A stretch of 33,774 nucleotides of DNA from Candidatus Woesearchaeota archaeon (GTDB lineage Archaea; Nanobdellota; Nanobdellia; Woesearchaeales; UBA10200), in contig DUGA01000048.1 in NCBI GenBank assembly GCA_013331615.1, positions 1 to 33,774 of the forward strand. The letters run 5' to 3'. A program made the translations under genes and the position numbers. The notes under the pieces are model-generated. The model had not been told where the DNA came from and did no database searches. It saw only the letters and a program-made list of their open reading frames with translations. Shown here piece by piece: positions 1,831 to 33,774 of the stretch (positions are counted from its first letter, which is position 1; the number at the start of each line of letters is the position of its first letter).

Positions 1831-1838
1831 CTCACCTC
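1831..1838 (-). promoter_or_regulatory. Shine-Dalgarno of the coiled-coil gene
   Basis: The minus strand reads GAGGTGAGACC directly before the ATG at 1827. It matches the archaeal anti-SD complement GGAGGTGATC and decides this start. Confidence 0.8.
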
Positions 1839-1906
1839 ATTGGGTTATTGTTTGTAGATTATATCTTTAATCTAAATATCTGATAGAATCCAGTTAGAGC
1901 AAATTT

Positions 1907-1920
1907 GTTTATAAATATAC
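1907..1920 (-). promoter_or_regulatory. TATA-type promoter of the coiled-coil gene
   Basis: The minus strand reads GTATATTTATAAAC, a good archaeal TATA box. A start about 25 bases downstream gives a leader of roughly 55-60 nt that contains the SD. The 213-bp spacer 1828-2040 therefore carries two divergent promoters. Confidence 0.6.
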
Positions 1921-2006
1921 TTTTTAGTAAAATTAGAGTTAAGCTTTACCAGGCTGTTTAAAACTTTACGCAGCTTTATTCTGCCTTGTTTTTGAAAAAG
2001 AAAAAC

Positions 2007-2014
2007 ATTTAAAT
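2007..2014 (+). promoter_or_regulatory. TATA box, near-leaderless start
   Basis: ATTTAAAT lies about 30 bases upstream of the ATG at 2041. No SD separates them, so the mRNA is probably leaderless or nearly so. Confidence 0.6.
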
Positions 2015-2040
2015 GAGGTTATGCCAAATAGGATACTAAA

Positions 2041-4167: not shown

Positions 4168-4551
4168 ATGGAAGTCAAATATATTATAGATACATTTGCG
4201 TGGGTAGAATACCTATCAGGCTCCGAGCGCGGAAAAGCTGTTGTAAGTATAATAGAGAATGATTTTCATGGCACCCCTATCTTGGTGCTTGCAGAACTTT
4301 CTGATAAATTTGCTAGAGATGGACAGGATTTTTCTGAAATCTTAAAATTTATTAAGGCAAAAAGTGTCATCATTGCAATGTCTCAAGAAGTAGCTATTAA
4401 TGCAGGAAAATTTAAGAAAAAAATGCGAGAAACACATAAGGATTTTGGTTTAATAGATAGTATAATCTATCTGACTGCAAAAGAACAAAATGCAAGACTT
4501 ATCAGCGGCGATAATCATTTTAAAGAATTAGATAGCGTAGTTATAATATAA
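4168..4551 (+). CDS. vapC: VapC-type PIN-domain ribonuclease toxin
   Basis: A 127-residue PIN domain, the usual VapC length. The acidic metal-binding set is intact: Asp8 (IIDTFAW), Glu43 (LAELSDK), Asp97 (FGLIDSIIYLTA) and Asp115 (SGDNHF). Family members are Mg/Mn-dependent endoribonucleases that cut tRNA or rRNA when freed from the antitoxin; the target here is unknown. The start ATG follows a strong SD (AAGGAGG at 4151-4157) that begins inside the antitoxin stop codon, so the genes are co-transcribed and probably translationally coupled. All key residues are present, so the toxin looks active. No mobile-element ends are visible around the pair. Confidence 0.85.
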   Translation: MEVKYIIDTFAWVEYLSGSERGKAVVSIIENDFHGTPILVLAELSDKFARDGQDFSEILKFIKAKSVIIAMSQEVAINAGKFKKKMRETHKDFGLIDSIIYLTAKEQNARLISGDNHFKELDSVVII

Positions 4552-7482: not shown

Positions 7483-7483
7483 A

Positions 7484-7502
7484 TTTTTTTAAAATTATTT
7501 TT
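7484..7502 (+). terminator. T-rich transcript end after the DUF1015 gene
   Basis: A run of seven T and then a second T-rich run follow the stop codon directly, with no hairpin. This is typical of archaeal intrinsic termination but weak as proof. Confidence 0.35.
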
Positions 7503-7548
7503 AAAGAGCCGTTAATCAATCTTTATCTTAATCAAATGTGTCTTAACA

Positions 7549-7556
7549 TTTATAAA
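7549..7556 (+). promoter_or_regulatory. TATA box, leaderless start at 7581
   Basis: TTTATAAA is centred 28-29 bases before ATG 7581, with the same spacing and core as the proS promoter. Confidence 0.6.
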
Positions 7557-7580
7557 CTGCTGCAAATCTTTTCTTAGATC

Positions 7581-8747
7581 ATGGTAATAGCATTAACGCA
7601 GGCAAAGCCTGAAAAGAAATCTGCATACCAGTCAGGGCATGATGGTGATGAGCCGATTCTTGATTTGAATAATATCTATGTTTATAGACCTGAATCTCCT
7701 TCAGGCGGTAGGCTGCATGGCATCGATGCAAAGATACAATATATTATGGATACATATGGAGAAAATGCAAAATTTATAATCAGAAAGATAATTAGGATAG
7801 GCATCAGGGCAGAAGTTATCCCGGAAAAAGCTATGCTAAGGGAAGATTATATTGAAGGGCTTCAGGAGTTTGTTGACAGTGAATGCGGAAATATTGCAGA
7901 AGATTTTGATTCAAATCTTGGAAAATTTCTTGAGGGAGAAGGGCAGCTGGCTTTCATACTAGGATATAGGATGCTGCCATTGGAAATCAGGAAACAGAAC
8001 TTGCCGGATAATAGATTTAGTGAGTCTAAATATGACAGTAGTCAAACAGGATATGATAGTGCAGGGTTAGGAGAGGAAGATGAATCATTAGATGACCGCC
8101 TGGATGAGCAGCATCATGGCAAATTAGATAAAAAGCCAGATGTGCAGCAAGTGCTTGCAGACCTTCATACCAAGCCTAAGACTCCTGCAGACCTGATAGA
8201 CAGCTATGTACTTGGGTTTGCTGTAGGAATTGCAAAGGATTTTGGCATATCTCTGAAGATGACTGAATTACCCATAGACCTTGAGACATACAATGATTTT
8301 ATGACAGGGTATAATGCGATCCCTGTTAATCTTCAAAATGATTCAAGCAGTGGTCAGACACGGGTTAATGAAACGATCTATTTAGCAGGATTAAAAGTTT
8401 GGTTAAATGAGCAGGGATTAGGAGCTATAGAGTCACGTTATCTGCGAAATCCAAATGCGCTAGCAGGATTTATAGCTGCATTGGAAGGCGTAGAAGTTGA
8501 AGAATTTGAGAAGCATTTGACAGAAACAATGTTCAATTCAAGAGTAAGGATGGCATCAAGGCAATCATTGGCAGAATGTGATATCTTTCTTGATAACGAA
8601 TCTTATAAAGCTTGGCCATCTTCTGAGACTGAAAGAGATGCTGCTTTGCGTGGTTATAAGTTAGGGAAGATCGCTAAAGTGAGAATGGCTAAAGCAAATG
8701 AAGCAGTAAGTAATATGAGCAGAGACAGATCTGTAATCATAATGTAA
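7581..8747 (+). CDS. Unrecognised cytoplasmic protein, 388 residues
   Basis: The open frame begins 28-29 bases after a TATA box centre with no SD, so it is likely a leaderless gene. There is no signal peptide or transmembrane helix. Residues about 20-135 look globular and helical (GIDAKIQYIMDTYGENAKFIIRKI type segments). Residues about 145-195 form a charged Asp/Glu/Ser/His-rich linker (DSAGLGEEDESLDDRLDEQHHGK). Residues about 200-388 are helical again. I see no catalytic motif, metal site or nucleotide-binding loop that I can name. Codon use and composition match the neighbours, so there is no sign of recent transfer. Its own promoter and stop isolate it from proS and DUF1015, so context gives no function. 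Confidence 0.75.
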   Translation: MVIALTQAKPEKKSAYQSGHDGDEPILDLNNIYVYRPESPSGGRLHGIDAKIQYIMDTYGENAKFIIRKIIRIGIRAEVIPEKAMLREDYIEGLQEFVDSECGNIAEDFDSNLGKFLEGEGQLAFILGYRMLPLEIRKQNLPDNRFSESKYDSSQTGYDSAGLGEEDESLDDRLDEQHHGKLDKKPDVQQVLADLHTKPKTPADLIDSYVLGFAVGIAKDFGISLKMTELPIDLETYNDFMTGYNAIPVNLQNDSSSGQTRVNETIYLAGLKVWLNEQGLGAIESRYLRNPNALAGFIAALEGVEVEEFEKHLTETMFNSRVRMASRQSLAECDIFLDNESYKAWPSSETERDAALRGYKLGKIAKVRMAKANEAVSNMSRDRSVIIM

Positions 8748-17293: not shown

Positions 17294-20200
17294 TTAGGTC
17301 AAGATTATAGTGGCTGATTCTATCGTTCCGTAGTCTTTGTTGTCATAAGGTATAATACTGCATGAGAGATTAGCTCCAATTGGAGGATTGTTTCCAGTGT
17401 TATCTTTATTTAGGTAAAGTGATTTATTGATTACATTATTTTTAGTATGCCAGGTTATGGCTTCTTCATAGACGTTTGCTGCACAGTCTTTCTTAATATC
17501 CCTTCTCTGCCATCTGCCATAATCATTTGTCTGATAGGTGTCCCAGTTACCGTCATATGCCTTATCCTCCTGTTGTATATAGTATCCTGGGCAGAAATAA
17601 AATCTGCCTGAGTTAGCGTTTCTCTGTCCTATGTCCTGCCATTCACCATCATAACATTGAGGATAGGAGAGAGAGATGCTCTGCCTGTCAACTCTCTTTG
17701 ATTCTGCATAAATCCTGAGCTTTAACTTATCTGTATTATAATTATCTGCATTATCGATAGTATCATTATAATCAAAGCATGATTGAGGTATCCTAATCTC
17801 ATATGCTTCTAAGCCACCATGCTTGACTTTCCAGACAGCAGAATCTGCTTCACTTGGCTTGATATAATCCATGTAAAAATAATTGCCTTCGATCAGATAG
17901 GTGTCTGCAGATTCCTGATAGATATTATAGCCGACTGGAACTTCAACATTATCAACATACCATTTTAGTGTAGAGCGGTCAGCATCACGGTCTGCATCAT
18001 GATAATCATAGGTGCATGATATAAGGTCAGTGTAACGAGAGCTTGCAGTCAATTCAACATCTGTAACACTAGGAAGCCTGTTCTTGTCTTGCACATTTAT
18101 TGCCCAGGAGATGGTTGAGGAAAATTCACCATCACTTACAACTGAAGTTATCTGATGCTGGCCTGCACTTTCATACCCATAATATTTAGTGAGAGCAGCA
18201 GGGTTAGTTGCAGAGTTAGCATCAGAGTTTATGCCTTCAGAGCTTTCATCAATTAATATATTGTCTGAATACCAGGAATATGTCAGGTTATCTCCGTCAG
18301 TATCAGAGTATTCTATGTTGAATGCGACAAAGGAATCTTCATCGACATTTATGTCTATAGATGAAGGCATCCGTGTTTGGAGTATAGGTGGGTGGTTTAT
18401 TCTTGCAGGAGGTTCTGGCATAGGAGGATTCTCTATCGGTGGATTATCTGCTGGCGGAGCTGGTGGTGTTTCTGGCAGCAAGTCATCTGTCTCATTCATT
18501 GGGTCGGTACTATTGTCAGGATTCGCTGTTATATTACCAGGATTATCTGCAGGAGGTTCTGGCAGTAAAGGTGGTTCAGGTGGTGCAGGAGGCTGTGGTG
18601 ATGCATTAACAGTGACTTTAAATGTTGTACTATCTTCAAATTCACCATCACTTACTGTTATCTTAAAGTTATAGCTTCCAACATCATTGATCTGCGGTGT
18701 CCATGCAAAGAGAGCATAATTTTGTGTAAGAGAATTCTGAGTGAATCTTGAATCATTGATTGTATATATCAACCTATCATCATCAGGATCTGAGGCAGAT
18801 GCATTTATGATGATCTCTGTATTCACTTCAGCTGATAGGTCATTAATTATGCTGAGTGTTGGAGGTGAATTAGGGTTTGGTGTCAAGATTACATTAAATG
18901 GCATCGTGGAAAATACATTGCCGTCACTTACAGTAACTAAGAAATTGTATGTTCCTTGATCACTTTTGCTTGTGTACCATGAAAATTGGTTATCAGTTTT
19001 GCTGAATCTTGAATCATTGATCGCATAGCTTAATAAATCATTATCTAGATCTGTTGCATTGATGGTTACAAATATCGAATCTCCTGGAATGCGGTTGATA
19101 GGAGAAATAATCTCAATTATGGGCGCTCTATTTGTATTTTCAATAGTTACCTTAATATTTTGGTAAACTTCTAAAGCACCATCGGTTGCAATAATCTTTA
19201 AGTTATAAATTCCTGCATCATCGTAAGAAGTTTGCCATGTGAAAATATTGTTTGATGAACTGTTCTTTACAAATCTGGTGTTGTTAATTGTATAGGTAAT
19301 TGCATCATTATCAGGATCTGTTGCAGATGCAGTTATTGTGGCTAAGGAATTCTCGCTGAGAGTTAGGTCATTGATGGTTGCTAACATAGGAGCCCTGTTC
19401 ACATTATTGACTGTAACCTTAAATGCCTTTGAATCACTCAAATGACCGTCACTTACTGTTATTTGGAGGTTATATGTTCCAGCATCTGTGTAAGTTGTCT
19501 GCCAAGTAAAAACATTTTTGATCATACTGTCCTGGACAAATCTTGTATCATTGATAGAATATTGCAATGCTTCTCCCTCACTATCATCAGCATTTACAGT
19601 TATCACTATCCTTTCATTTTCGTTTATAATCCTATCAGCAATAGGTTCTAAGACTGGCTGAGTATTAGGCAAGGTCAAGTTAGGTGCAGCTGTTTCATTG
19701 CCTGGTGCATTACCGGAATTATTTCTTATCGGCTCAGAAGGAACCGGAGAATCACCTATCACACTTGAATTATCATATCCGTCAGATACAAGTATAACAC
19801 ATGAAACATTTTGCTGAGTGTACATGCTCATATTAATCACATTATTTGTTGTATGCCATGTTATGGATTCTTCATAGATATTTGCTGCGCAAGCTGTTCT
19901 TGTATTACTTCTCTGCCAGCTTCCGAAATCATTTGTTATGTAAGTATCCCAATTGCCATCACTTGCCTTATCTGTGTTCTGCGAAATAAATCCTGCGCAG
20001 GTGTATGATTTTCCTGATACTGTGTTTAGCTCTCCAATGTTTTTCCATCCTCCATCAAAACACTGAGGATAAGATAAAGCTATTCTTTGCCTGTTGATAA
20101 ATGCTGACTGTGAAAATATCCTTAGCTGAAGATTTTTGCTATTATTAAAGCATGATGCAGGAACCTCTATCTCGTAAGGGTTTAAGCCGCCATGCCTGAC

Positions 20201-23200
20201 TTTCCAGACTGCAGCTGATGCTTCAGCAGGCTTGCCATATGTTGCATAAAAGAAATTATCTGCAAATGAATAAGCATCTGCATCTTCTTGATAGACATCA
20301 TAACCAACTTCAACCTCTGCATCATTAACCTGCCATTTAACTTGTGAATAGTCTTTATCACCGTCTGCATCATAGTAATCATAGCTGCAAGATTGCAAGC
20401 CAGGAGAGAGAGTTATTGGCTGTGTTGCTATGTTAGAGATTACAGGCAACCTGTTTTTGTTGGTTATTGCAAGCGACCAATCATTTGTAGCAGCCAAGCT
20501 TCCATCTGTTGCAGTTACTCTTATTGAATATCTTCCTGTGCTATCATAATCATAATATTGCGTAAGTTTTGATGATGTTTCATCGATCAATATGTTGTTG
20601 ATATGCCAGGAATAAGTTAGAGTGTCGCCATCTGGGTCAGTAAACTGAGGTGTAAATTCTATCATATTATCTTCAGATTCTTGATAGTCTGATTGAGGCG
20701 CTGCAGATACAAGCACAGGAGCCCTGTTGATGTTATTTATCGTGAGGGTAGCAGTTTTGCTGACAGATTCTATACCATCTGTTACACTGAATTTAACATT
20801 ATATTGCCCAGAATCTGAGTAAGTTGTCTGCCAAGTGAAGAAGTTCCTGTTTTGGATAAATCTGGAATCATTTGCTGAATAGATAAGCGCATCATTGTCT
20901 GGATCAGTTGCTGCTAATACAATAACTATTTCATCTGCTTCATTTTTCACTATATTGGTGATAGGCTCCAAAGATGGTGCTCTGTTTATGTTGTTGACGG
21001 TAATCTTCAATATTTTTGAATCAGATAAAGTGCCATCAGTTGCAGTTATCTTTATGTTGTAAACTCCTGCATTATCATAGGAAGTTTGCCAAGTGAATAG
21101 GTTATTAGAGTTATCATCTTGTATAAATCTGCTATCATTGATCGAAAAGGTTAAGGTATTGTTGTCAGGATCAGTTGCTAAAGCAATTATTGTGGCTAAT
21201 TGGTTCTCACTAACAGTTAAATCACTGATTTGGTTTAAGACTGGTGCCCTGTTAAAGTTATTGACGCTAACTTTCAATGTCTTTGAATCTGATAAAGTGC
21301 CATCTGTTGCAAAGATTTTTATGTTGTATGTGCCTGCATCATCATAAGAAGTTTGCCATGTGTATCTGTTTTTATTGATGCTGTCTTGGGTAAATCTTGA
21401 GTCATTGATTGAATAAGTTATTGCGTCATTGTCTGGATCAGTTGCACTAGCCGTTATAGTTACCAGTTGATTTTCACTTACTGACAAATCACTTATTGCG
21501 TTTAGTACTGGGGCTCTATTAACATTATTGACTGTGACTTTGAGTGTTTTTGTGTCGCTCAAACTACTGTCGCTTGCAGTGATTTTTAAGTTATATTCTC
21601 CTGCATCTTCATAAGTAAGCTGTCTGGTAAATCTGTTGCTTGAATAAATAAATCTGGAATCATTGATTGTGTAAATGATTGCCTGACCATCTGGATCAGT
21701 TGCGCTCAAGAAAATCTCTGCAAGGTTGCCTTCATCTAAAGTCATGTCTGTGATAGATTGAAGAACTGGTGCCCTGTTTACATTGTTAACAGTGACTTTC
21801 AATGTTTGTGAATCAGATAAAGTGCCGTCTGTTGCAAAGATTTTTATGTTGTAAGTTCCTGCATCATCATATGTTGTCTGCCAGGTGAAGACATTATTTG
21901 CTGAACTGCTCTTTACAAATCTTGTGTCGTTGATTGCATAAGTTATTGCATCATTGTCTGGATCAGTTGCAGCAGCAGTTATTGTAACTAATTGGCTTTC
22001 ATCTACTGCAATATCACTTAATGCAGCTAATGTTGGCTTTCTATTCACGTTGCTAACATTGAGCCTGAATACTTTTGAGTCAGAATCTGTTAAGTCTGTT
22101 GCTGTCAGCTTTAAGTTATAAATTCCTGCATCATTGTAAGAAGTTTGCCATGTGAAAATATTGTTTGCAGAACTACTCTTTACAAATCTGGTATCGTTGA
22201 TCGAATAAGTTAGTTCATCATTGTCTTGGTCAGTTGCAGCAGCAGTTATTGTAACTAATTGGCTTTCATCTACTGCAATATCACTTAACGGAGCTAATAC
22301 TGGATTTCTATTGACGTTTTTAACTGTTAGCATGAATGCCTTTGTATCTGTAGCTGTGCCATCTGTTGCGGTAATTTTTAGGTTGTAAGTTCCTGCATCA
22401 GTGTAAGAAGTTTGCCATCCAAACAGATTATCCTGCTGCGTGAATCTGGAATCATTGATCGAATAAGAGATGCTATCTCCATCCAAATCTGTTGCATGTG
22501 CTGTTATTAGAGCAATTTCAGTCTCGTTTATATTAATGTCAGGAATATTGTCTAGGACTATGGCTCTATTGGCATTATTGATGGTAACTTTGAATGTCTT
22601 TGTGTCAGATAAAGTACCATCTGTTGCTGTTATTTTTATGTTGTAAGTTCCTGCATCATTGTATGTTGTCTGCCAGGTGAAGATATTTTTATTGATGCTG
22701 TCTTGAATAAATCTTGTGTCATTGATTGCATAAGTTATTGCATCATTGTCAGAATCTGCCCTGGTTAAGGTTATTATAACTAAGGAATTCTCGTCTAGAG
22801 CCATGTCATCTATCTCAGTCAGAACTGGCGCCCTGTTAAGGATATTGATTGAATCTTCAACAGGTATGCCCTCAGCTTTGCCATCATTAGGCACTACTTT
22901 ACATGATACATTTGAGTTTGGTGAGAGAAGATCCGGGGTTAGCAAGATACTGCCTTTCTTCCATGTTATGGCTTCTTCATATATATTTGCTGCACAGCTA
23001 GCTTTAGGGTTTCGCCTCTCCCAAATACCTAAGACATTCGTGATATAAGTGGTCCAACTTCCATCATATGCCTTATTTGAATCTAGAGTAAAGTAACTTG
23101 AAGTGCAGTTAGAATAACCGTCATCAGCCGAACTCCTCTTCCCTATAGTAATCCAATCTCTGCCAGTATAACATTCAGGATACGAGCTAGCTATTTTTGA

Positions 23201-26200
23201 TACTGTAAAGTTTGAATAGATCCTTAATTGCAATGTATCACTGGAATCAAAACATGCTTGAGGCAGTTGTATATCATATGTTGCCAATCCGCCATGTTTT
23301 ACCTTCCATGAAGCAGAATCTGCCTCTGGATGCTTTGCATAATTGACATACATATAATTTCCTTCGAAAGAATATTCTTCTGCAGCTTCCTGATAAATCT
23401 CCTTGCCAGATTGGACATGATTCTCATTTACATACCAGTTGACTGTTGATAAATCAATGTCGCCATCAGCATCGGTAAACTGATATAGGCATGTTAAGGT
23501 ATCATTGCTGTATACTATTTCTGGAGAAATGCTGACAGAATTTACGCTAGGAAGCCTGTTTGTATCGGAAACATAAACAGTAAATGTTTTTGTATCTGAT
23601 AATGATCCGTCATTTACAGTAACTGCTAGATTATACGTGCCTTTACTGTTATAATCAGTCTGCCATGTGAATATATTAGTTGTGCCAACATTTTTTGTAA
23701 ATCTGCCATCGTTGATAGAGTAGGTTAAGAAATCTCCGTCTGGATCAGCTGCAGATGCTGTTATAGTCACTAATTCAGCCTCATTGACAGAAATGTCACT
23801 GATTGCTGCTAAAACAGGAGCTCTGTTGAGATTATTAACAGTGACTTTGAATGTCTTTGTGTCAGATAAAGTACCGTCTGTCGCTGTTATTTTTACAGTA
23901 TATGTTCCAGAGTCTGTGTAAGTGGTCTGCCAAGTGAAGATGTTTTTGTTAAGGATATCTTGGACAAATCTACTATCGTTGATCGAATAAGTTAGTTCAT
24001 CATTGTCTGGGTCAGTTGCACTAGCTGTTATACTTACTAATTCATTCTCATTGACATAACTATCGCTGATTGCTGCTAACACAGGAGCTCTGTTGAGATT
24101 ATTAACAGTGACTTTGAATGTCTTTGAGTCAGATGATGTGCCATCTGTTGCAGTTATCTTTATGTTGTAAACTCCTGCATCATCATATCCTGGCGTCCAT
24201 GTGAAGATGTTTTTGTTTATAATATCTTGGGTAAATCTGGTGTCGTTGATTGTGTAAGTTAGAGCATCATTGTCCGAATCTGTTGCACTTGCGGTTATTG
24301 TGGCAAGTTGATTTTCATTCACAAGTAAATCACTGATTGTGTTTAGCACTGGCGCTCTGTTGACATTATTAACAGTAACTTTGAATGTCTTTGAGTCACT
24401 CAGACTCCCATCGGAAACTGTTATTAAGAGATTATAAATGCCTGCGTCTACATAACTTGTCTGCCAGGTGAATTTATTTTTGTTAACATTATCTTGGACA
24501 AATCTACTGTCGTTTATTGCATAAGTTAGGGCATCATTATCCGCGTCTGTTGCAGATGCAGTTATTATGATTAAGGAATTCTCGCTAAATGTTGCATCTG
24601 CTATTATATCTAATGCAGGCTTTCTGTTTATATTATTAACTGTAACTTTGAATGTTTTTGAATCACTTAAGTTGCCGTCGGTAACAGTAACATTTAGATT
24701 ATAAGTTCCCATGCTAGTATAATCAGTTTGCCAGGTAAATATATTATTTGTTTGTGTAAATCTGCTATCGTTAATTGTATAAGTTATTGCATCATTATCT
24801 TGATCTGTTGCAGATGCAGTTATTGTGACTAATTGATTTTCATCTATATTAATATCACTTAATGCAGCTAATGTCGGCTTTCTATTGACGTTGCTAACAC
24901 TGAGCCTGAATACTTTTGAGTCAGAGCTTGTTCCGTCTGTTGCAGTTATCTTTATGTTGTATACTCCTGAATCTGAATATGTTGTCAACCATCCAAACAG
25001 ATTATCCTGCTGCGTGAATCTTGTATCATTGACCGAATAAGTGATGCTATCTCCGTCTAGATCAGTTGCAATTGCAGTTATAAGCGCAACTTCAGTCTCG
25101 TTTATATCTAGGTCAGGAAGATTATTTAATGCAGGAGCCCTATTTACATTATTGACTGTTATCTTGACTATCTTTGAATCAGAGGACTCACCATCGCTTG
25201 CAGTTACATTTACAAAGTATATTCCTGCGTCTGAATAGGTAGTTTGCCAGGTGAAGACATTGTTTGCATCATCACTATCGTTAAATCTGGTGTCGTTGAT
25301 CGAATAGTTTAGAATATCTCCGTCAGGATCTAAGGCAACTGCAGTTATGATTACAAGATTATCCTCATCTACAGTTATGTCATTGATTGCATTAAGGATA
25401 GGGGGGTTATTTGGAATAAACTCTTTATAGGTTAAGTATTCAACTGCATTGGTAATCAATCTTCTGCTGGATTCATCATTATCAATGCTATTTACAGAGA
25501 ATGCAAAATAGAGAAGGTTTGTTGTACCATTTTTGAAGCTGAGTATGGCAGAGTTTGAGTTATTCCACTGTGCAAGGCTAGTGCTGTTTCCAATAGGGAT
25601 TACAGAATCAGGATAAGAACCGCGTGATTTATTAAATTTTAATTCAGGTATGTCTTTGAATATTGTGTGATTTGAGAGATTTAATGTCAGATTATTTTCA
25701 ATTGCAATATCACTATCAAAAACAGCATGCAAGTAATTAGCTAAGAAATCATCTTTTTTATGGTCAAATGCAATATCAGCTCCTTCAAACAAGATATTTC
25801 CAGTATAATTATATAATAACTCAGTATCATTATTGTTTATTACTCCATCCCAATAACTTCCTGCACTCCATATGACAAGATCATAACCGTCCAGATTAGC
25901 AAGGGAAGGTGTTCCTTTTTCATTCTCTTTCCATGTTGTAGTGCAATAGCCTGATTCTTTCAAAACAGAATCAATTTTTTCAAGACTGCTGGAATAATTG
26001 GTTAGACTCTCAGAAGCATCACTATCTTCCACTATAAACACTTTTGATTTATTGCAAAGATACAATTTAGAGCTTAGCAGATTATTAGAATAATCGGATT
26101 CTATTATTTGATGATTCTGATTTACAACAACTGTTACATTAAATATCTCATTGATGTTTTTATCTACTTGAAGATATGAATTTGTTACAGCGCTTTTTCC

Positions 26201-29200
26201 AGCTTCCAAAGAGACGGCACTGCTACCGATGAGATTATTGTTAGCATAGAGATCCACTATTGCATTGTCTGCATTAGCGCCGCCTATATTGCTAATGTTT
26301 ACAGTAAATGTAATATTAGCAGGGTTAATCTGCCAGTTTAAATAACTAGGAATCAGATCTGCCTCAACTGTTGCCACACTTACGTCAAATGCCTTAAGAT
26401 TATTTAAGTAATCATTTTCAACGAGATTAAAGTCATCATTTAATACTATTTTTATAACGTGTTTTCCCGCTGCTAAGTTAAGGCTGACAGGCACTATCTT
26501 CTCATCATTATGCGCAACATCTATATTTAATGATTGAACAACAATATCATCAACAAGTATGTCCACTTTAGCATTGGTTGCATCTAGTTGCCCATTATTG
26601 CCTAAGATGATATTAATTGCATTAGATCCTTGGATAAGATAACCATAATTAATATCTTTTACAGATAAATCTGCATTATTGTTGCTTGTAAACAACCAGT
26701 TCATCATATTTTGCATCATTGCATAAAAAATTACAGGATCTAATTCAGATAAGCTAAATCCAAAAGTCACAACCTTAGATCTATCAGAATTATATGCCAC
26801 TATTGAAGATGCTGCATCATTCCATTTGCCCAATTCTCTTGCACCATCCATCGGAGCCAGTGAAGTGCCAGAAGCATCAAGCATTATCTGATCTAGCTGC
26901 AAGCCTTTAAAGAGGGGATGAGGATAAGTGCCAATAATTTGACCTGTATTATTTTCATCAAACTCTAATTTCTTATCAAAATTGGCTTTAGTTACCTTAG
27001 TAAAATTATCATTAAACCTGTTATCGTAAACAATATTAGAGCCTTCTACAACTAAGTTTCCTCCTGCTCCAAGGTATTCCAATAATAATCCAGAATCTGA
27101 TTCTGAAAGAGGCGTGTTCGCACGAGTTCCTGTGCTTAATATTGCAGCAGTAAACTTATTAAGATAACCTAGACTAGGCATATCTGACTTTAATTTATTC
27201 CAAGAGGAGACACAGTAATTGCCAGCTAAGCCGTCACTAAATAATGTGGTGTAATTTCCTAACTCAGTAGATATGATCAATACACCTGGCTTTGAGCAAT
27301 CATTGACTCTAAAGCTAGCAGTATTAGATGTTGCACAAAGATTAGTACTGTCACATACATCAAAATTGAAGGTATAATCTCCTGTTTTTGATGTATCTTC
27401 ATATGTTGCGACCAATGTTAAAGCACCACCATACTTTGTAAATTGTTTTGCAGGCAAATCATGGGTTATGCCATCAGTATCTCTTAGATGCAATAATGCA
27501 GTTACATTACTTAGCTCATATACTTCAACTTCTATTAATGCAGGATCGTTTTTATTTAGGCTGTTTTTAAAAGTGATATCGCCTATGACTGGATCTGCCT
27601 GGTCTATGAGATAGAAAGTCTTTTCTTTTATCAGCGAATAACCGTCATAAGTAGCAATAATCCGTATCTGTTTCTCGCCTAAATCTGCATCAGCAGTCCA
27701 GTTAAACTCTATCACAAGCCCAGATTGCGGATCAACTGTATTATTCTGCTTATTGATAGACGCAACCATCAGATTATTATCTAGAATCTGCGCTTCAGTC
27801 ATCACATTAATGGCTGAATTGCCGTCATTCTTTAATATTGCCTGTAAGGTCAATGTGCCATTATGTGGAATATGCTGCGGAATTATAATCTGGTCAACAT
27901 AGCCCTCTTTTGAGTTGAATTTGAACACATCAAATGATTTTTCAACTGTAAAAATTCTGCCATATCTATCAGTGATAGAAATAGTCATTGTATATAAGCC
28001 AATTTCATCTGTCTCTTGATAAATCGCCTTCCACGAATTAGAAGAGATGCTAGTGTAATCAACATTTGTTTTTTGCTGTGAAGGCTTGGCAACAACCATA
28101 GAAATATTAGAGATATCACTTGAGCTGGTGTTGACAAATACTTGTACATCACTATGCAAGTATACTATTTCTGGATATGTGATATTATAATCTTTCTTAG
28201 TATCCAGATAAGCTGAGAATAAATCTGCAACATTAACTATTCCTGAGCCATATTTAATATCTTTGCCAGGATCACCTTTAGGAGCAGCAGTGGCTTCAAG
28301 CAAACTCTTAACTTCTCTAGGGGTTAAGCTTTTGTTCATCTGCAGCAATAAAGCAACTACCCCAGAAACATGCGGAGTAGCCATGCTGGTCCCATCAGCT
28401 TTATAATATATGTTGTCTACAATATTAGAGCCAGGTATATACCCACGTTGACCCAGATACATATCAGTCCCAGCTGCTCTTGCTGCAACAATATTTACTC
28501 CAGGAGCCACAACATCTGGCTTAATATAAGACCCATAATTATATCCGCTTGAGAATATTGCCCAGTTATTTGATTTGTCTACTGCACCAACTGTTATCGC
28601 TTCTTCAGTATTCGCAGGAGAAACTGCTACATTATATCCTGCATTGCCAGAGGCAATAACTACAGTAACATTATTTGCAATAGCATCTCTTACTGCATCA
28701 TTTAATAGGCCGTCTTCATTAATAGTTTTTCCAAGACTCATAGAGATTACATTTGCACCTGAATTTACTGCCCAATTAATCGCTGCAATTATCCATTCAT
28801 CATCAGCATTATGATTACCAAATACTTTTGCTGCTAAAATCTCAGCTTCTGGAGCAACTCCCCTATAGCGAGTACCATTTCCTGCAATTGTTCCTGCAAC
28901 ATGAGTACCATGACCGCCTGTATCTGTAGCGATTGAATCACTGTCACCATCACCATTTTCAATGCCATCATAGCCAATAGATGTTGGCGGTACAAAATCA
29001 TTTTCAGCTATAACTCTTCCACGAAGATCCAAATGATTCTTATCAACTCCTGAATCAATAACAGCTACTTTTATTCCTTTGCCTGTATAATTTAATTGCC
29101 ATGCAGAAGGAGCACTTATCTGAGGAACACTCTGGTCTAGCAACAGATGGTATTCTGTTACAGGCCAGACGCTATCAATACTTTGATCTTGAGATATGCT

Positions 29201-29563
29201 TCTTAGCTTAGAGACAGGCATAGATGCAGAAACTACATCACCTAACTTAAATTGCCCTTTTACGATGCCGCCTTGTTTTGAGATAGCATCTGCTACTTTT
29301 TTCAGATTATTTTCGTCTGTAACTTTTATCAAGACATCAATTTTTGGGCCAGAGTCAATATAATTAAAAAATGTTTTTATGAAGCTATTGCTATGCTCTG
29401 CATTGTTAAGCTTTTCTTGCTTTTCTAACTTATTTAGCAGATCATTATGGATCTTTCCATTAAAGTTATCTTTTCTCAGTGCAAGAACCTGTGTAGATAG
29501 AGACATGACTACTAAAAGGATCAATAAGATTTTCAAGCAGTTGATTAAGTTGTTATGCTTCAT
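17294..29563 (-). CDS. Giant secreted subtilisin-like protease with cadherin-like repeats (4089 residues)
   Basis: Signal peptide at residues 1-29; I9-like propeptide about 73-140; S8 catalytic domain about 150-450 with Asp170 (VAVIDSGVD), His218 (GGHGTHVAG), oxyanion Asn307 (ASGNAG) and Ser393 (GTSMATPHVSG), all intact. Then Ig-like sandwiches, a GATase-like alpha/beta domain (758-957), two CARDB domains (963-1168), and a second GATase-like domain (1173-1378). After residue 1386 come 19 cadherin-like repeats of about 86-90 residues (NRAPVL...ATDPDND...IND-RF...FTWQT...ATDG-LSD). They sit in blocks of 7, 8 and 4, each closed by an Ig-like domain split by a six-cysteine insert; the last two blocks also have a PKD-like domain. 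No C-terminal anchor is seen. The start overlaps the upstream gene by 11 bases (ATGAAGCATAA). Likely an extracellular protease/adhesin; substrate unknown. Confidence 0.9.
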   Translation of the reverse strand: MKHNNLINCLKILLILLVVMSLSTQVLALRKDNFNGKIHNDLLNKLEKQEKLNNAEHSNSFIKTFFNYIDSGPKIDVLIKVTDENNLKKVADAISKQGGIVKGQFKLGDVVSASMPVSKLRSISQDQSIDSVWPVTEYHLLLDQSVPQISAPSAWQLNYTGKGIKVAVIDSGVDKNHLDLRGRVIAENDFVPPTSIGYDGIENGDGDSDSIATDTGGHGTHVAGTIAGNGTRYRGVAPEAEILAAKVFGNHNADDEWIIAAINWAVNSGANVISMSLGKTINEDGLLNDAVRDAIANNVTVVIASGNAGYNVAVSPANTEEAITVGAVDKSNNWAIFSSGYNYGSYIKPDVVAPGVNIVAARAAGTDMYLGQRGYIPGSNIVDNIYYKADGTSMATPHVSGVVALLLQMNKSLTPREVKSLLEATAAPKGDPGKDIKYGSGIVNVADLFSAYLDTKKDYNITYPEIVYLHSDVQVFVNTSSSDISNISMVVAKPSQQKTNVDYTSISSNSWKAIYQETDEIGLYTMTISITDRYGRIFTVEKSFDVFKFNSKEGYVDQIIIPQHIPHNGTLTLQAILKNDGNSAINVMTEAQILDNNLMVASINKQNNTVDPQSGLVIEFNWTADADLGEKQIRIIATYDGYSLIKEKTFYLIDQADPVIGDITFKNSLNKNDPALIEVEVYELSNVTALLHLRDTDGITHDLPAKQFTKYGGALTLVATYEDTSKTGDYTFNFDVCDSTNLCATSNTASFRVNDCSKPGVLIISTELGNYTTLFSDGLAGNYCVSSWNKLKSDMPSLGYLNKFTAAILSTGTRANTPLSESDSGLLLEYLGAGGNLVVEGSNIVYDNRFNDNFTKVTKANFDKKLEFDENNTGQIIGTYPHPLFKGLQLDQIMLDASGTSLAPMDGARELGKWNDAASSIVAYNSDRSKVVTFGFSLSELDPVIFYAMMQNMMNWLFTSNNNADLSVKDINYGYLIQGSNAINIILGNNGQLDATNAKVDILVDDIVVQSLNIDVAHNDEKIVPVSLNLAAGKHVIKIVLNDDFNLVENDYLNNLKAFDVSVATVEADLIPSYLNWQINPANITFTVNISNIGGANADNAIVDLYANNNLIGSSAVSLEAGKSAVTNSYLQVDKNINEIFNVTVVVNQNHQIIESDYSNNLLSSKLYLCNKSKVFIVEDSDASESLTNYSSSLEKIDSVLKESGYCTTTWKENEKGTPSLANLDGYDLVIWSAGSYWDGVINNNDTELLYNYTGNILFEGADIAFDHKKDDFLANYLHAVFDSDIAIENNLTLNLSNHTIFKDIPELKFNKSRGSYPDSVIPIGNSTSLAQWNNSNSAILSFKNGTTNLLYFAFSVNSIDNDESSRRLITNAVEYLTYKEFIPNNPPILNAINDITVDEDNLVIITAVALDPDGDILNYSINDTRFNDSDDANNVFTWQTTYSDAGIYFVNVTASDGESSDSKIVKITVNNVNRAPALNNLPDLDINETEVALITAIATDLDGDSITYSVNDTRFTQQDNLFGWLTTYSDSGVYNIKITATDGTSSDSKVFRLSVSNVNRKPTLAALSDINIDENQLVTITASATDQDNDAITYTINDSRFTQTNNIFTWQTDYTSMGTYNLNVTVTDGNLSDSKTFKVTVNNINRKPALDIIADATFSENSLIIITASATDADNDALTYAINDSRFVQDNVNKNKFTWQTSYVDAGIYNLLITVSDGSLSDSKTFKVTVNNVNRAPVLNTISDLLVNENQLATITASATDSDNDALTYTINDTRFTQDIINKNIFTWTPGYDDAGVYNIKITATDGTSSDSKTFKVTVNNLNRAPVLAAISDSYVNENELVSITASATDPDNDELTYSINDSRFVQDILNKNIFTWQTTYTDSGTYTVKITATDGTLSDTKTFKVTVNNLNRAPVLAAISDISVNEAELVTITASAADPDGDFLTYSINDGRFTKNVGTTNIFTWQTDYNSKGTYNLAVTVNDGSLSDTKTFTVYVSDTNRLPSVNSVSISPEIVYSNDTLTCLYQFTDADGDIDLSTVNWYVNENHVQSGKEIYQEAAEEYSFEGNYMYVNYAKHPEADSASWKVKHGGLATYDIQLPQACFDSSDTLQLRIYSNFTVSKIASSYPECYTGRDWITIGKRSSADDGYSNCTSSYFTLDSNKAYDGSWTTYITNVLGIWERRNPKASCAANIYEEAITWKKGSILLTPDLLSPNSNVSCKVVPNDGKAEGIPVEDSINILNRAPVLTEIDDMALDENSLVIITLTRADSDNDAITYAINDTRFIQDSINKNIFTWQTTYNDAGTYNIKITATDGTLSDTKTFKVTINNANRAIVLDNIPDININETEIALITAHATDLDGDSISYSINDSRFTQQDNLFGWQTSYTDAGTYNLKITATDGTATDTKAFMLTVKNVNRNPVLAPLSDIAVDESQLVTITAAATDQDNDELTYSINDTRFVKSSSANNIFTWQTSYNDAGIYNLKLTATDLTDSDSKVFRLNVSNVNRKPTLAALSDIAVDESQLVTITAAATDPDNDAITYAINDTRFVKSSSANNVFTWQTTYDDAGTYNIKIFATDGTLSDSQTLKVTVNNVNRAPVLQSITDMTLDEGNLAEIFLSATDPDGQAIIYTINDSRFIYSSNRFTRQLTYEDAGEYNLKITASDSSLSDTKTLKVTVNNVNRAPVLNAISDLSVSENQLVTITASATDPDNDAITYSINDSRFTQDSINKNRYTWQTSYDDAGTYNIKIFATDGTLSDSKTLKVSVNNFNRAPVLNQISDLTVSENQLATIIALATDPDNNTLTFSINDSRFIQDDNSNNLFTWQTSYDNAGVYNIKITATDGTLSDSKILKITVNNINRAPSLEPITNIVKNEADEIVIVLAATDPDNDALIYSANDSRFIQNRNFFTWQTTYSDSGQYNVKFSVTDGIESVSKTATLTINNINRAPVLVSAAPQSDYQESEDNMIEFTPQFTDPDGDTLTYSWHINNILIDETSSKLTQYYDYDSTGRYSIRVTATDGSLAATNDWSLAITNKNRLPVISNIATQPITLSPGLQSCSYDYYDADGDKDYSQVKWQVNDAEVEVGYDVYQEDADAYSFADNFFYATYGKPAEASAAVWKVRHGGLNPYEIEVPASCFNNSKNLQLRIFSQSAFINRQRIALSYPQCFDGGWKNIGELNTVSGKSYTCAGFISQNTDKASDGNWDTYITNDFGSWQRSNTRTACAANIYEESITWHTTNNVINMSMYTQQNVSCVILVSDGYDNSSVIGDSPVPSEPIRNNSGNAPGNETAAPNLTLPNTQPVLEPIADRIINENERIVITVNADDSEGEALQYSINDTRFVQDSMIKNVFTWQTTYTDAGTYNLQITVSDGHLSDSKAFKVTVNNVNRAPMLATINDLTLSENSLATITASATDPDNDAITYTINNTRFVKNSSSNNIFTWQTSYDDAGIYNLKIIATDGALEVYQNIKVTIENTNRAPIIEIISPINRIPGDSIFVTINATDLDNDLLSYAINDSRFSKTDNQFSWYTSKSDQGTYNFLVTVSDGNVFSTMPFNVILTPNPNSPPTLSIINDLSAEVNTEIIINASASDPDDDRLIYTINDSRFTQNSLTQNYALFAWTPQINDVGSYNFKITVSDGEFEDSTTFKVTVNASPQPPAPPEPPLLPEPPADNPGNITANPDNSTDPMNETDDLLPETPPAPPADNPPIENPPMPEPPARINHPPILQTRMPSSIDINVDEDSFVAFNIEYSDTDGDNLTYSWYSDNILIDESSEGINSDANSATNPAALTKYYGYESAGQHQITSVVSDGEFSSTISWAINVQDKNRLPSVTDVELTASSRYTDLISCTYDYHDADRDADRSTLKWYVDNVEVPVGYNIYQESADTYLIEGNYFYMDYIKPSEADSAVWKVKHGGLEAYEIRIPQSCFDYNDTIDNADNYNTDKLKLRIYAESKRVDRQSISLSYPQCYDGEWQDIGQRNANSGRFYFCPGYYIQQEDKAYDGNWDTYQTNDYGRWQRRDIKKDCAANVYEEAITWHTKNNVINKSLYLNKDNTGNNPPIGANLSCSIIPYDNKDYGTIESATIILT
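17297..18082 (-). repeat. Split-Ig six-cysteine module, copy 3 (C-terminal)
   Basis: Begins NRLPSVTDVELT and runs to the protein end. Cysteines at ISCTYDY, QSCFDYN, YPQCYDG, YFCPGY, KDCAANV and LSCSIIP. Conserved SAVWKVKHGG, KAYDGNWDTYQTND, YEEAITWHT. An extra Asn/Asp-rich loop follows the second cysteine. Confidence 0.75.
18400..18614 (-). repeat. Proline-rich linker coding region
   Basis: Encodes repeated PPAPPEPP, LLPEPPADNP and ENPPMPEPPA with Asn/Thr-rich spacers: an extended, probably glycosylated stalk between block 3 and the last PKD-like domain. Confidence 0.7.
18615..19667 (-). repeat. Cadherin-like repeat block 3 (4 units)
   Basis: Four more divergent units from NTQPVLEPIAD to TTFKVTVNA. 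DNA of the second unit (about 19200-19290) is nearly identical to a block-2 unit (about 22100-22200), so exchange has crossed blocks. Confidence 0.8.
19735..20455 (-). repeat. Split-Ig six-cysteine module, copy 2
   Basis: Begins NRLPVISNIATQ. Cysteines at QSCSYDY, ASCFNNS, YPQCFDG, YTCAGF, TACAANI and VSCVIL match the other copies. Conserved AAVWKVRHGG, KASDGNWDTYITND, YEESITWHT. Confidence 0.75.
20456..20734 (-). repeat. PKD-like domain before split-Ig module 2
   Basis: Reads NRAPVLVSAAPQ..., FTDPDGDTLTYSWHINN and a YYDYDSTGRYSIRVTATDGS end, a PKD/Ig-type sandwich distinct from the NDxRF units. A second copy is at about 18083-18400. Confidence 0.6.
21963..22021 (-). repeat. 59-bp exact direct repeat, copy A
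   Basis: Identical base for base to 22230-22288, offset 267 bp (89 codons, one repeat unit). Encodes the ATDxDND-preceding VDESQLVTITAAATD segment. Confidence 0.85.
22230..22288 (-). repeat. 59-bp exact direct repeat, copy B
   Basis: Second copy of 21963-22021; silent sites are also identical, which implies a recent duplication or gene conversion. Confidence 0.85.
22835..23560 (-). repeat. Split-Ig six-cysteine module, copy 1
   Basis: Begins NRLPSVNSVSISPEI and shows C at LTCLYQF, QACFDSS, YPECYTG, SNCTSS, ASCAANI and VSCKVVP. Between strands of an Ig-like domain (DADGDIDLSTVNWYVN ... CKVVPNDG) lies an insert with SASWKVKHGG, KAYDGSWTTYITN and YEEAITW. Confidence 0.75.
23561..25408 (-). repeat. 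Cadherin-like repeat block 1 (7 units)
   Basis: Seven tandem units of about 86-90 codons, each starting near NRAPVL or NRKPTL and ending in TFKVTVNN. The acidic TDPDND and NDxRF motifs suggest Ca-binding turns. The block is closed by split-Ig module 1. Confidence 0.85.
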
Positions 29564-30251
29564 TTTTTGGGGTCATATCATCGCAATAAATCTTTTCCGT
29601 CTTCAGATCATAATAACACCTGCCTTCTGCATCCATCTTAAACACGCAAAAGTTGTTTGTTATATTTTCATACTGTTGCTTAGTTAATTCCTTGAATAAA
29701 TTGCTAATTTTTGATGCAATCTCATATTCCTTTTTTATAGAATTATATCTCTCATTATCTTTAACACTGCCCTCTTTCCTTAATTGTTTAAGTAGAGTAA
29801 TAAGCAATAACAGTAACCCTGGATTGATAAATACATATTTAACTACAAAACCTGTTTTAAGAATCCAATCTAACCCCTTCCGTATAATCCCATCTTGTTT
29901 AATCCCTGATGTTCTAGCGGCATTTAACATCTCAAAATAAGATGCATCATAATTTTTTAGTTCTATAATCGCTAGAGAAACATAAATCCTAAATAGGTAA
30001 GACATAATCTGCATCTTATATCCTTCGTTCATTAAATATCCATATTGTTGCATAAATGCTTCATTCTTTGTAATCTCATCTTGGATATGCTCACGTACCT
30101 CTCTCAAATCCTCTTTATTTTCGTTCTTATTCTTGAGAGTAATCTTAATTTTAGCTAATAATTTTTTGTCTAATCTATAAAAAAATCTAACTAGTATTAA
30201 CCCTAAATATATCTCCTTATTCTCAGTTTCAAATTCGATATTTCTTCTCAT
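29553..30251 (-). CDS. Single-span membrane protein between zincin and subtilase genes; possible partner or immunity protein
   Basis: A 232-residue protein with no signal peptide. Residues 1-130 are charged and helical (KIKITLKNKNENKEDLREV; YLFRIYVSLAIIELKNY). A hydrophobic stretch near 136-157 (FVVKYVFINPGLLLLLITLL) is a likely transmembrane helix, followed by a Lys/Glu-rich helical segment and a short Cys-containing end (NNFCVF, GRCYYD, IYCDD). I do not recognise a family. It starts 22 bases after the zincin stop behind GAGGGGATC. It ends by overlapping the subtilase start by 11 bases, so all three genes are one translationally linked operon. Placement directly behind a toxin-like gene suggests an immunity or assembly partner; that is inference from position only. 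Confidence 0.75.
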   Translation of the reverse strand: MRRNIEFETENKEIYLGLILVRFFYRLDKKLLAKIKITLKNKNENKEDLREVREHIQDEITKNEAFMQQYGYLMNEGYKMQIMSYLFRIYVSLAIIELKNYDASYFEMLNAARTSGIKQDGIIRKGLDWILKTGFVVKYVFINPGLLLLLITLLKQLRKEGSVKDNERYNSIKKEYEIASKISNLFKELTKQQYENITNNFCVFKMDAEGRCYYDLKTEKIYCDDMTPKNEA

Positions 30252-30253
30252 TA

Positions 30254-30262
30254 GATCCCCTC
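30254..30262 (-). promoter_or_regulatory. Shine-Dalgarno of the 232-residue gene
   Basis: The minus strand reads GAGGGGATC just before ATG 30251, close to the archaeal consensus GGAGGTGATC. It lies in the 22-base gap after the zincin stop. Confidence 0.55.
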
Positions 30263-30273
30263 ATTAGATGTTA

Positions 30274-33200
30274 TTAGCCCATATTTTTGGTTTCTTCAGC
30301 AATCAGATTTACCATTCTCTTATATTCAGCTGGGTCAGTAACTACTGCAGTGTCTTCATATAATTTAACAAGCGTATTTGTTTTAGTAATTACTTCATCA
30401 CAGAGATATGGAAAACAATCAAATGTTCTTATCATATTATCAAATTCAGTTAAGGACATTATCCCAGAATCTCTATATGAGAGTTTAATCCATGCTAGTT
30501 GGTCAAAGTTTCTGTTTTTTATTCTTTTTTCTATTTCTTGTCTTGCCATTTTTCTCAAAAAGGTTTTTTTCATTGTATCTTTAAATCTTGTTTTTTCTGT
30601 TGAGAAGAACCTGTTTATGCCTAGATTATTTGTTTCAAATTCATCAAAGTATTTTACATTGTCATAGGTATACGCCGGAGTTAAGATATCTTCGATATCA
30701 ATGCCTCTGTACAACATTTTCTTTTTGTGTAATAATTCATGTCCAATCGTAAAATCCAGTATTAAATCAGGATCATATCTTACCTCATTTAAATTGTATA
30801 CAATTTTGTCAGAAATTGGGTAAAATGCACTCTGGTCAGTATACTTAAAGGAGATTTCTGGCAAATCTTTACCAGGTTTTAAACTTAAATCATCTGCAAA
30901 TCTTATTATGCTTTCATCTAATTGGGTGACATATTTAACCTTAGAAGCATCTTTTAATATTTCTACTGACCCATCATATTTAGCAACAAATGTGAATACA
31001 TTTTGCAAGACAGTATCATCAACACCGCTTTGCTTCAGAATTTTATATAATACCTCATCACCTAATTTATCAAACGTTCTGACCAATCCGGCTTTTGCCT
31101 CTGCAATATGCTCCCATGCTGCAAACAATCTGTCTATCTTTGCCTTGACTACTACATCACTCACTTTGCTTAATAGTTTAGCAAGGGCATCATCCCAAAT
31201 TCTTATACAATCTTGGACACTCTGCGGAGTTACTGTTGCGCCTGCAGGAACTAATTTACAGACTTTAGTATAATATTCAGTAAGATCAGAGACGCTGCTA
31301 GACATAGTTTTAATGAAATCATCACTCTTGCCAACAAACCATTCTGCCCCCCTATGCTTGGCTAACCTAGCCAACCCATCGACAAGCTTATCACCCCATT
31401 TGGATGCTACAGCCCATATTTTTAATTCACCGACTGTTTTAGCAACCGCACCGCCATATTTCAGGGAGATGTCTGCAATCAATCTTGCTCCTTCAGTTGC
31501 AACTCTGCCAATCTTAGTGCCTTTTGAGATTGCGCTAAATATTTTGCCTGCTTTTGCGATTACAAGTTCAATAAGAAGTATTTGTTCTATGATGTAACCT
31601 ATAATATACCCAAAATAAAATGATGACTGGAAAGAGGCATATTCATCACTTGGGCCATATATGCCAAGCAAACTTAAGAACCATCTGCCTTGTTCAAATA
31701 TGCCTATGCTAACATCATGTACAACATCTCCCAAATTGCTGAATAATGTGCCGAGACCTTCCCATAATTTGCCTAAAAAGTCTGTAACTTTGTCGACATC
31801 AGCGCCTTTCCAAAACAAATACCATAATGCTTCCAAAATCATCTTACCTAAGTCAAAAAGGCCAACTGCATCATCTTTTATACCATTGCCTACACCAAAT
31901 AAAATCCCTACAAGCTGACCTGCGCATCCAGCTAAAATAGGAAATACACCAGTAACACCTGTATCTTTATCTTTTATGAAATAAATAACATTCGCGCCAT
32001 ACTGAACATATTTTACACTATCACTATTAAGAAGCATTGGCTTCATAGTTTTCTGATTAGAAACTAGTTTATCATCAGGAATATTAACTGAATCCAATAG
32101 TTGTCCTATAGAAACGCTATCTTTATTTACAAACATCTGATTAAAAGACTCTGAATTATATGATTTAATTTTGGTAATCATTGAATCAACTTCAGATTCA
32201 CTAAACCATCCAGAAAATAATGCTGTATAATCAAAACAACCATGTGCAACATGTCCAGGCATTAAGAAATAGGTTAGGTCTTTACTGGAATCCAATGGGT
32301 CTAAGCCCATCACTGTCTCATCATAATCATTTAATCCATCTGCATCTGAATCTACTGTAGCTAAATCACACGCGCATTCAAAATACATATATTTATTTCC
32401 ATCGATATTTTGCCTTTTCGAGTCACAAAAATTCTGATCTGGACATCTTACCTTAACTTCTTTGACACCATAGCTTGTTGTAAATGTGAACTTACCATCT
32501 GAGCCTGTACTGCCACGAAGTTCGTTGTCTAACAATACTTTTGCATTTCTAAGAGGCCTCTTATAATCATTTGTATTGACAACATCTACATTAATTCTAG
32601 CGATAGGAGAGATGCAATCACTATTGCATATTTGCCAAGTTTCACCATTATTGCAAATCCCGTCGCCACAATATTCAATTATTCTTTGAGTGACTGTTAG
32701 GCTTTGAGTCTTTACATTATTATTCTCACTTGTTTCTGAGATATAATTATCTGTATCAATTATATTCTTCAGGGTATAAGTTCCTGCGCTTAATTGTATG
32801 CCTGATCTTTCACAATAGTAGTTTGTATTTGGAAGTATCTCAATATTTGAGTTGCATGTTTGATATAATTCATTATTGAGATATAATTTATAATTAAAAG
32901 GTGCACTTATAGTATCAGGGCCATTATTGACCATAGAATACCTGATGGTGATTGAATCAGAATTATAAGGACTACTGGGATTTACAGTAAAATCAGAAGC
33001 GACAAGATCGTATTGCTTTAATGCACCTACGCTCATGCTTTGCGTCTTTACATTATTATTTTCGTTAGTTTCGCCTATATTATTATCTGCATCAACAACA
33101 TTCTTAATAGTGTATATGCCGGAAGTTAGACGTATGTTAGTTCTATCACAATAATAAGTGTAACCTGCTAAAGCACTATTAAGATTACATGTTTGATAGA

Positions 33201-33774
33201 GTATATTGTTTATATAAAGTTTAAAATTAAAATAATTGTTAATATTATCTGGCCCTTTATTTTCAACTTGATATCTGATTGTAACAGAATCTATGTCTTT
33301 GGGATTACTTGGCGTAATTACAAAGTCATAAGGCATTAGGTCATATAGGTTAGTTGTACTGACTGGTAAGCTCTGCGTCTTTGCATTATTATTTTCATTG
33401 CTTTCCCCGATATTATTATCTGCATCAACGACATTCTTCAATACATGCGTGCCTGAAGATAAGGTCAAGCCTGTTCTTTCGCAAGTATATATCGAGCCAG
33501 TGTTTGCGCCATTATTAAAATTACAAACCTGATCATAAACATCATCTATATACAGCTTTGAGGTAAATGCAGCGCCTATATTATCAGGACCATTATTGAT
33601 TACACGATACTGGATAGTAATAGAACTTTGGTCTGTCGGTGAACTTGGTGTAACTGTGAAATCACCTGGCACTAGGTCATACTGTGCAGCATGGCTGACT
33701 GGCAAACTCTGCGTCTTTGCATTATTATTTTCATTTGACTCGCCTATATTACCATTTGCATCAACGACATTCTT
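30274..33774 (-). CDS. CARDB-repeat secreted protein with C-terminal HExxH zincin domain, toxin-like (5' end outside window)
   Basis: The frame is open to the window edge, so the start and export signal lie outside. From the edge: the tail of one CARDB domain, then three complete CARDB repeats of about 112 residues (YDLVPGDFTVTPSSP...VVDADNNIGESNENNNAKTQSL). Next a CGDGICNNGE cysteine motif, a carboxypeptidase-regulatory-like sandwich (PLRNAKVLLDNELRGSTGSDGKF) and a thrombospondin-3/EF-type DSDADGLNDYDE. A long Gly/hydrophobic region follows (SFYFGYIIGYIIEQILLIEL), like the pre-toxin segment of polymorphic toxins, then helical linkers. The end holds HELLH (30727-30741), with EFE about 29 residues later as third ligand, preceded by DKIVYNLNEV, as in secreted zincins. 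Predicted zinc metallopeptidase. First gene of the operon visible here. Confidence 0.8.
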   Translation of the reverse strand, partial: KNVVDANGNIGESNENNNAKTQSLPVSHAAQYDLVPGDFTVTPSSPTDQSSITIQYRVINNGPDNIGAAFTSKLYIDDVYDQVCNFNNGANTGSIYTCERTGLTLSSGTHVLKNVVDADNNIGESNENNNAKTQSLPVSTTNLYDLMPYDFVITPSNPKDIDSVTIRYQVENKGPDNINNYFNFKLYINNILYQTCNLNSALAGYTYYCDRTNIRLTSGIYTIKNVVDADNNIGETNENNNVKTQSMSVGALKQYDLVASDFTVNPSSPYNSDSITIRYSMVNNGPDTISAPFNYKLYLNNELYQTCNSNIEILPNTNYYCERSGIQLSAGTYTLKNIIDTDNYISETSENNNVKTQSLTVTQRIIEYCGDGICNNGETWQICNSDCISPIARINVDVVNTNDYKRPLRNAKVLLDNELRGSTGSDGKFTFTTSYGVKEVKVRCPDQNFCDSKRQNIDGNKYMYFECACDLATVDSDADGLNDYDETVMGLDPLDSSKDLTYFLMPGHVAHGCFDYTALFSGWFSESEVDSMITKIKSYNSESFNQMFVNKDSVSIGQLLDSVNIPDDKLVSNQKTMKPMLLNSDSVKYVQYGANVIYFIKDKDTGVTGVFPILAGCAGQLVGILFGVGNGIKDDAVGLFDLGKMILEALWYLFWKGADVDKVTDFLGKLWEGLGTLFSNLGDVVHDVSIGIFEQGRWFLSLLGIYGPSDEYASFQSSFYFGYIIGYIIEQILLIELVIAKAGKIFSAISKGTKIGRVATEGARLIADISLKYGGAVAKTVGELKIWAVASKWGDKLVDGLARLAKHRGAEWFVGKSDDFIKTMSSSVSDLTEYYTKVCKLVPAGATVTPQSVQDCIRIWDDALAKLLSKVSDVVVKAKIDRLFAAWEHIAEAKAGLVRTFDKLGDEVLYKILKQSGVDDTVLQNVFTFVAKYDGSVEILKDASKVKYVTQLDESIIRFADDLSLKPGKDLPEISFKYTDQSAFYPISDKIVYNLNEVRYDPDLILDFTIGHELLHKKKMLYRGIDIEDILTPAYTYDNVKYFDEFETNNLGINRFFSTEKTRFKDTMKKTFLRKMARQEIEKRIKNRNFDQLAWIKLSYRDSGIMSLTEFDNMIRTFDCFPYLCDEVITKTNTLVKLYEDTAVVTDPAEYKRMVNLIAEETKNMG

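Follow-up and report, generated by a model that had tools for sequence, protein, structure and literature searches.

Bacterial polymorphic toxins are well known, and such toxins have also been predicted in some archaea (PMC3482391, PMC8416519, PMC6393860), where the classical systems have been called rare (Zhang et al. 2012, PMC3482391). In the bacterial systems, a secreted multi-domain repeat protein carries a pre-toxin region and a switchable C-terminal toxin, an immunity gene lies downstream, and orphan cassettes occur (PMC3482391). A similar plan is found at a locus of an archaeon of the order Woesearchaeales, on a contig of 33,774 bases that was analyzed whole (hereafter the window) and that belongs to a 1.54-Mb genome. 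The locus encodes a large, probably secreted protein, a 232-residue protein, and a giant subtilase, and very probably belongs to a polymorphic toxin system that occurs in Woesearchaeales, with proposed roles in export, immunity, and proteolysis by the subtilase. The system is read in this way because its core is constant across homologues, its C-termini are switched, and the small genes that follow co-vary with them.

The Woesearchaeales system differs from the bacterial ones in that its core, or pre-toxin region, matches no Pfam or NCBIfam family, and in that its operon encodes the giant subtilase as a protein of its own. Subtilisin is among the processing proteases of Sec-exported toxins (PMC3482391). 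No markers of type VI or type VII secretion systems or of Photorhabdus virulence cassettes were seen in the approximately 30 gene neighbourhoods read. Archaeal polymorphic toxin loci, mostly with DNase or RNase tips, have been predicted by Makarova et al. (2019, mBio), as summarized in PMC8416519; these are likewise predicted toxin loci in archaea, and against that summary the window stands out by its zincin tip and its giant subtilase. VARTIG of Thermococcales (PMC8416519) shares a large surface protein of immunoglobulin (Ig) type with variable downstream genes, but lacks a recognizable toxin domain, whereas the Woesearchaeales tips resemble several kinds of enzyme. The nearest analogue in DPANN archaea is the SPEARE proteins of Nanohaloarchaeota (PMC6642349), which are likewise giant and secreted and combine serine protease with adhesion modules. 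They are built differently, with protease, toxin-like, and nuclease parts in one membrane-anchored protein, whereas the window has separate genes and a switched tip.

The gene of the large protein (30274..33774, minus strand, as for all features of the locus below) comprises 1166 codons and has lost its 5′ end at the contig end. The contig breaks inside the CARDB repeats, so the N-terminus is missing; signal-like hydrophobic N-termini are apparent by eye in homologues from five genomes (G126, G306, G174, G062, and G495), while that of the window lies off the contig. The domain order given in the initial annotation is borne out. The protein starts with a CARDB repeat stalk (32692..33774, residues 1–361; Pfam PF07705, E 6.6e-37, three stretches), followed by a cysteine motif, CGDGICNNGETWQICNSDC, read from the translation (32614..32682, residues 365–387, with the motif at residue ~369). 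A small beta-type domain with a weak CILP-like match (32371..32601; PF23591, E 0.0035, under the cutoff) is common to the sister toxins, and leads to a TSP3- or Ca-type loop, DSDADGLNDYDETVMGLDP, also read from the translation (32293..32355, with DSDADGLNDYDET at residue 474); the equivalent stretch of homologues is PF18884 TSP3_bac. The conserved core (31255..32280, residues 499–840) is hydrophobic, with hydropathy peaks at residues 607–611 and 721–732, and carries the pattern GxGxGxxDD...GYxxGYxxEQ. The variable, zincin-like C-terminal domain (30277..31005, residues 924–1166) completes the protein. The small gene (29553..30251) begins 22 bases downstream, and its end overlaps the start of the subtilase gene (17294..29563) by 11 bases. 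Owing to this spacing, the three genes are assigned to one predicted operon, of which the initial annotation had the polymorphic-toxin plan and overlooked the third gene.

Homologues show a constant core with exchanged C-termini. The first to be found, in a Candidatus Woesearchaeota archaeon of the same order (G126, JACRKK010000107.1), matches residues 394–807 of the window protein at 32% identity (E 2e-63). A profile built from this region (A1) was found in 17 of the 371 genomes of the phylum sample, over the full region in four and mostly over the first ~80 positions in the rest; the beta-type domain accounts for matches to positions 3–84 in many genomes. A profile of the core (A2) was found in 15 of 353 genomes of the order and scores the window at E 3e-128, the window being one of its training rows. 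Alignments with the window end at residue 807–832 in G207, G306, G174, and G126, the last from a contig that stops near the alignment end, so that its tip is not visible. The constant part that had been ascribed to the stalk is the core that follows it, with stalks varying among CARDB, CarboxypepD_reg-like, and MopE-type repeats. The C-terminal domains vary, each with its own linked small gene downstream, as had been proposed; an invariant C-terminus with an unlinked small gene, named beforehand as evidence to the contrary, was not seen among the homologues.

The tips appear to fall into several enzyme-like classes, mostly read by eye from sequence unless an E-value is given here. PD-(D/E)xK-like tips (G207, G174, and G495) are mutually similar, as are Barnase/EndoU-like tips (G306, G497, and G508; PBECR1 E 0.18 for G497). 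Others are nuclease-like (G496), ParB-like (G160 and G481; SbnI E 0.03 for G481), ADP-ribosyltransferase (ART)-like (G139 and G332; Scabin-like E 0.11 and 0.0024, respectively), or zincin-like with other HExxH stretches (G219 and G523), and one is unclassed (G494). A weak SprT family match (E 0.036) also occurs among the sister-locus tips. Searches of the Protein Data Bank with toxin and immunity profiles gave nothing firm; the match of the Barnase/EndoU-like group to 6n7m (E 0.018) is suggestive only.

The exchange is clearest among close relatives. Within one genus (g150), the toxins of L040 and L071 are 54–78% identical up to residue ~1054 and 18–25% beyond, while L040 and L073, which share a tip, are 63–68% identical in the last blocks. 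L040, L045, and L071 occupy the same chromosomal place beside dCTP-deaminase-like and kinase-like genes, and their tips and small genes differ. L075, of another family, bears the same tip and small gene as L040 and L073. Pairs of loci that share a tip also share a small-gene family in seven of seven cases (permutation p about 5e-5, in a test that ignores kinship), with the window pair a singleton. The core tree is discordant, which argues against kinship alone as the cause of this match: L071 and L072 are sisters in it (100/99) but differ in tip, and the tip of L071 matches those of L041 and L042.

At most other loci, the co-varying small gene directly follows the toxin. The small genes of L041 and L071, beside PD-(D/E)xK-like tips, weakly match PF11876 TsiV (E about 0.02), described as ‘Type VI immunity for VRR-NUC’, and three members of their family weakly match PADLOC PDC-M20B (E 0.0014–0.018). 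Four further genes follow the toxin in L044, namely small genes of 267, 254, and 363 residues and an orphan tip of 205 residues homologous to the C-terminus of the toxin of the same locus, an arrangement also known from bacteria; no orphan tip or extra small gene is seen in the window. In this orphan tip (1694–2311, minus strand), the nuclease-like motif EVKTQ reads EVSAQ, and the domain is perhaps inactive.

The 232-residue protein of the window is probably the immunity factor for its tip, a reading based on its operon position and on the co-variation of small genes and tips at sister loci. It matches no family in Pfam or NCBIfam. The single membrane span ascribed to it is borderline; one hydrophobic stretch is present (29790..29852, residues 134–154), and its maximum KD19 is 2.08 with K, N, and P within. 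Matches to the small gene in G089, G127, and G090 were rejected, as they overlap unrelated genes (helicase, enolase, and others), and the similarity of a 224-residue gene after the zincin-bearing toxin of L045 is weak and not significant.

The window tip is probably a zinc metallopeptidase, as judged from its motifs. The HELLH motif (30727..30741, residues 1012–1016) and the downstream EFE (30634..30642, residues 1045–1047), a possible third ligand, are both present as first described. HELLH is the sole HExxH of the large protein, and such a motif arises in 0.16% of shuffles. No match to the tip was found in curated families including Pfam. Its only significant match is an SprT-like protein of a related genome (G342), 37% identical over 60 residues around HELLHKK; the gene lies outside any toxin locus and was rejected as a second cassette. 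Relative to SprT-like zinc metallopeptidases, the third ligand of the window tip appears to differ, and the tip, unlike those proteins, is fused to a secreted stalk.

The third gene encodes a giant secreted S8 subtilase of 4089 residues with a signal-like N-terminus and about 19 repeats of Ig (Big_9), PKD, and cadherin type. Its Peptidase_S8 domain (28241..29083, residues 161–441; PF00082, E 2.8e-61) retains the D/H/S triad motifs. Unlike a SPEARE protein, it has no nuclease family among its Pfam matches, and hydropathy above 1.6 is listed only at the N-terminal signal. A subtilase homologue lies downstream of the small gene or genes at 12 loci including the window (L040, L041, L042, L044–L048, L071, L073, and L075). 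In a same-genus genome (G001), the gene order is S8, 527 residues, a toxin-like protein of 1362 residues, 195 residues, and 158 residues; the toxin-like protein has a weak core match (independent E-value 3e-5), a different, nuclease-like C-terminus, and a different small gene.

Taken together, these features suggest how the system might work. The large protein would be exported by Sec, as the signal-like N-termini of homologues suggest, and displayed or released on its repeat stalk. The hydrophobic core may then present the C-terminal domain or insert it into a neighbouring cell, perhaps helping it across the membrane; inside that cell the tip would do its damage. The 232-residue protein would bind the tip and so guard the producer, and the giant subtilase probably has a part in cutting or releasing the toxin, in contact, or in both. 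It is possible, at somewhat under an even chance, that toxin, immunity, and protease form one weapon of host-associated archaea and a distinct DPANN delivery class, in which the co-transcribed subtilase would process or hand over the switched tip when the cell touches a host or a competitor.

Several points count against the polymorphic toxin interpretation. Its support is computational throughout, the source assembly is 64% complete, and most C-terminal family matches at the sister loci fall under curated cutoffs. No homologue of the window zincin tip was found at the sister toxin loci, and none of the 232-residue protein was found in the genomes, toxin loci included, or in the viral, phage, and plasmid sets; the two are paired by position only. 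Single-sequence AlphaFold2 models are too poor to read or fold-search for the tip (predicted local distance difference test score, pLDDT, 45) and unusable for the small protein (pLDDT 47), though the latter was read as mostly helical. In L055, L072, L074, and L076 no subtilase lies downstream, so it is not an obligatory partner.

The lone 232-residue gene also bears on a narrower reading, in which the system is a polymorphic toxin but this protein is an accessory such as a chaperone or export factor, with immunity elsewhere or missing. Its hydrophobic stretch and lack of homologues would fit, as would the lipoprotein-like accessory genes that separate the small gene from the subtilase gene in L040 and L041; yet the immunity gene of a rare tip is expected to lack homologues, and the direct succession of toxin and co-varying gene at most other loci makes the accessory role unlikely. 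That the proteins are secreted, repeat-rich, and adjoin a subtilase would also suit digestive enzymes or adhesins of the cell surface whose interchangeable enzymatic tips serve to scavenge polymers from debris or partner cells; the small genes would then encode chaperones or membrane proteins unrelated to the tips. Degradation of bacterial cell walls by Woesearchaeota has been proposed (PMC9723730), and the sister toxin of L076 carries an M15 peptidase domain (E 3.4e-15). Against such a role, several tips resemble enzymes that act in the cytoplasm (nuclease-, Barnase/EndoU-, ParB-, and ART-like), most of the small genes follow the type of tip and show no signal peptide by eye, and the orphan tip and duplicated small genes of L044 would be useless for digestion, so that digestion or adhesion is quite improbable. 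Still less probable is a system for self/non-self recognition or adhesion with a hypervariable tip; the pairing of a large Ig/CARDB protein with variable small downstream genes does follow the plan of VARTIG, which has no known toxins (PMC8416519), but the variable part of VARTIG is an Ig domain, whereas the tips here bear enzyme-like motifs of recognized toxin kinds (HExxH, E-x-K, HIxxKH, and DGHHR).

Other genes recur around the toxin loci. Upstream of the toxin is often a gene of ~200–330 residues with a signal-like N-terminus, mostly rich in Pro, Ser, and Gly, whose product closes with a basic amphipathic tail, for example FFKRLFG (L040 10578–11171; L042 2442–3434; L044 8252–8977; L045 5360–6019; L046 9164–9898; L047 3189–3881; L016 3611–4276); in the window it would fall beyond the contig end. 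The lipoprotein-like homologues of L040 (5349–5972) and L041 (4454–5146) are Cys-rich (E 4e-23). The M15 domain of L076 is an internal M15_4 D-Ala-D-Ala carboxypeptidase domain of a toxin at 6297–8567 (minus strand), hinting at a bacterial target. Matches of profile A1 in G389 and G013 were rejected as family members, as they cover only TSP3-type loops, and G386, G011, G134, and G265 were left outside the family; the beta domain is present in them, but in subtilase proteins whose C-termini are lipase-like. Genomes of family f10 (L049, L050, L052, and L053) carry proteins in which a subtilase region is combined with the shared beta domain and a C-terminus of lipase-like type; small membrane genes follow, and these proteins are possibly a related effector class. 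Searches found no further toxin copy in the window's own 64%-complete genome and no relatives of the system in viral contigs, phages, or plasmids. Elsewhere in the window, a PIN-domain protein (4168–4551, plus strand; E 2e-13) adjoins prolyl-tRNA synthetase.

A literature search for this architecture in DPANN archaea found none, though the main archaeal survey (Makarova et al. 2019) may include the family. Both the family, among DPANN archaea, and the coupling to a subtilase in one operon are apparently new. Polymorphic toxin weapon systems are barely described in such archaea, and few secreted effectors of DPANN are known. The family bears on the means by which these archaea might harm or hold their partners or compete on them, and offers candidate toxin–immunity cassettes with matched specificity, a shared core that can be used as a probe in searches, and an associated protease. 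Antagonism by or among DPANN archaea thereby becomes testable through single cassettes.

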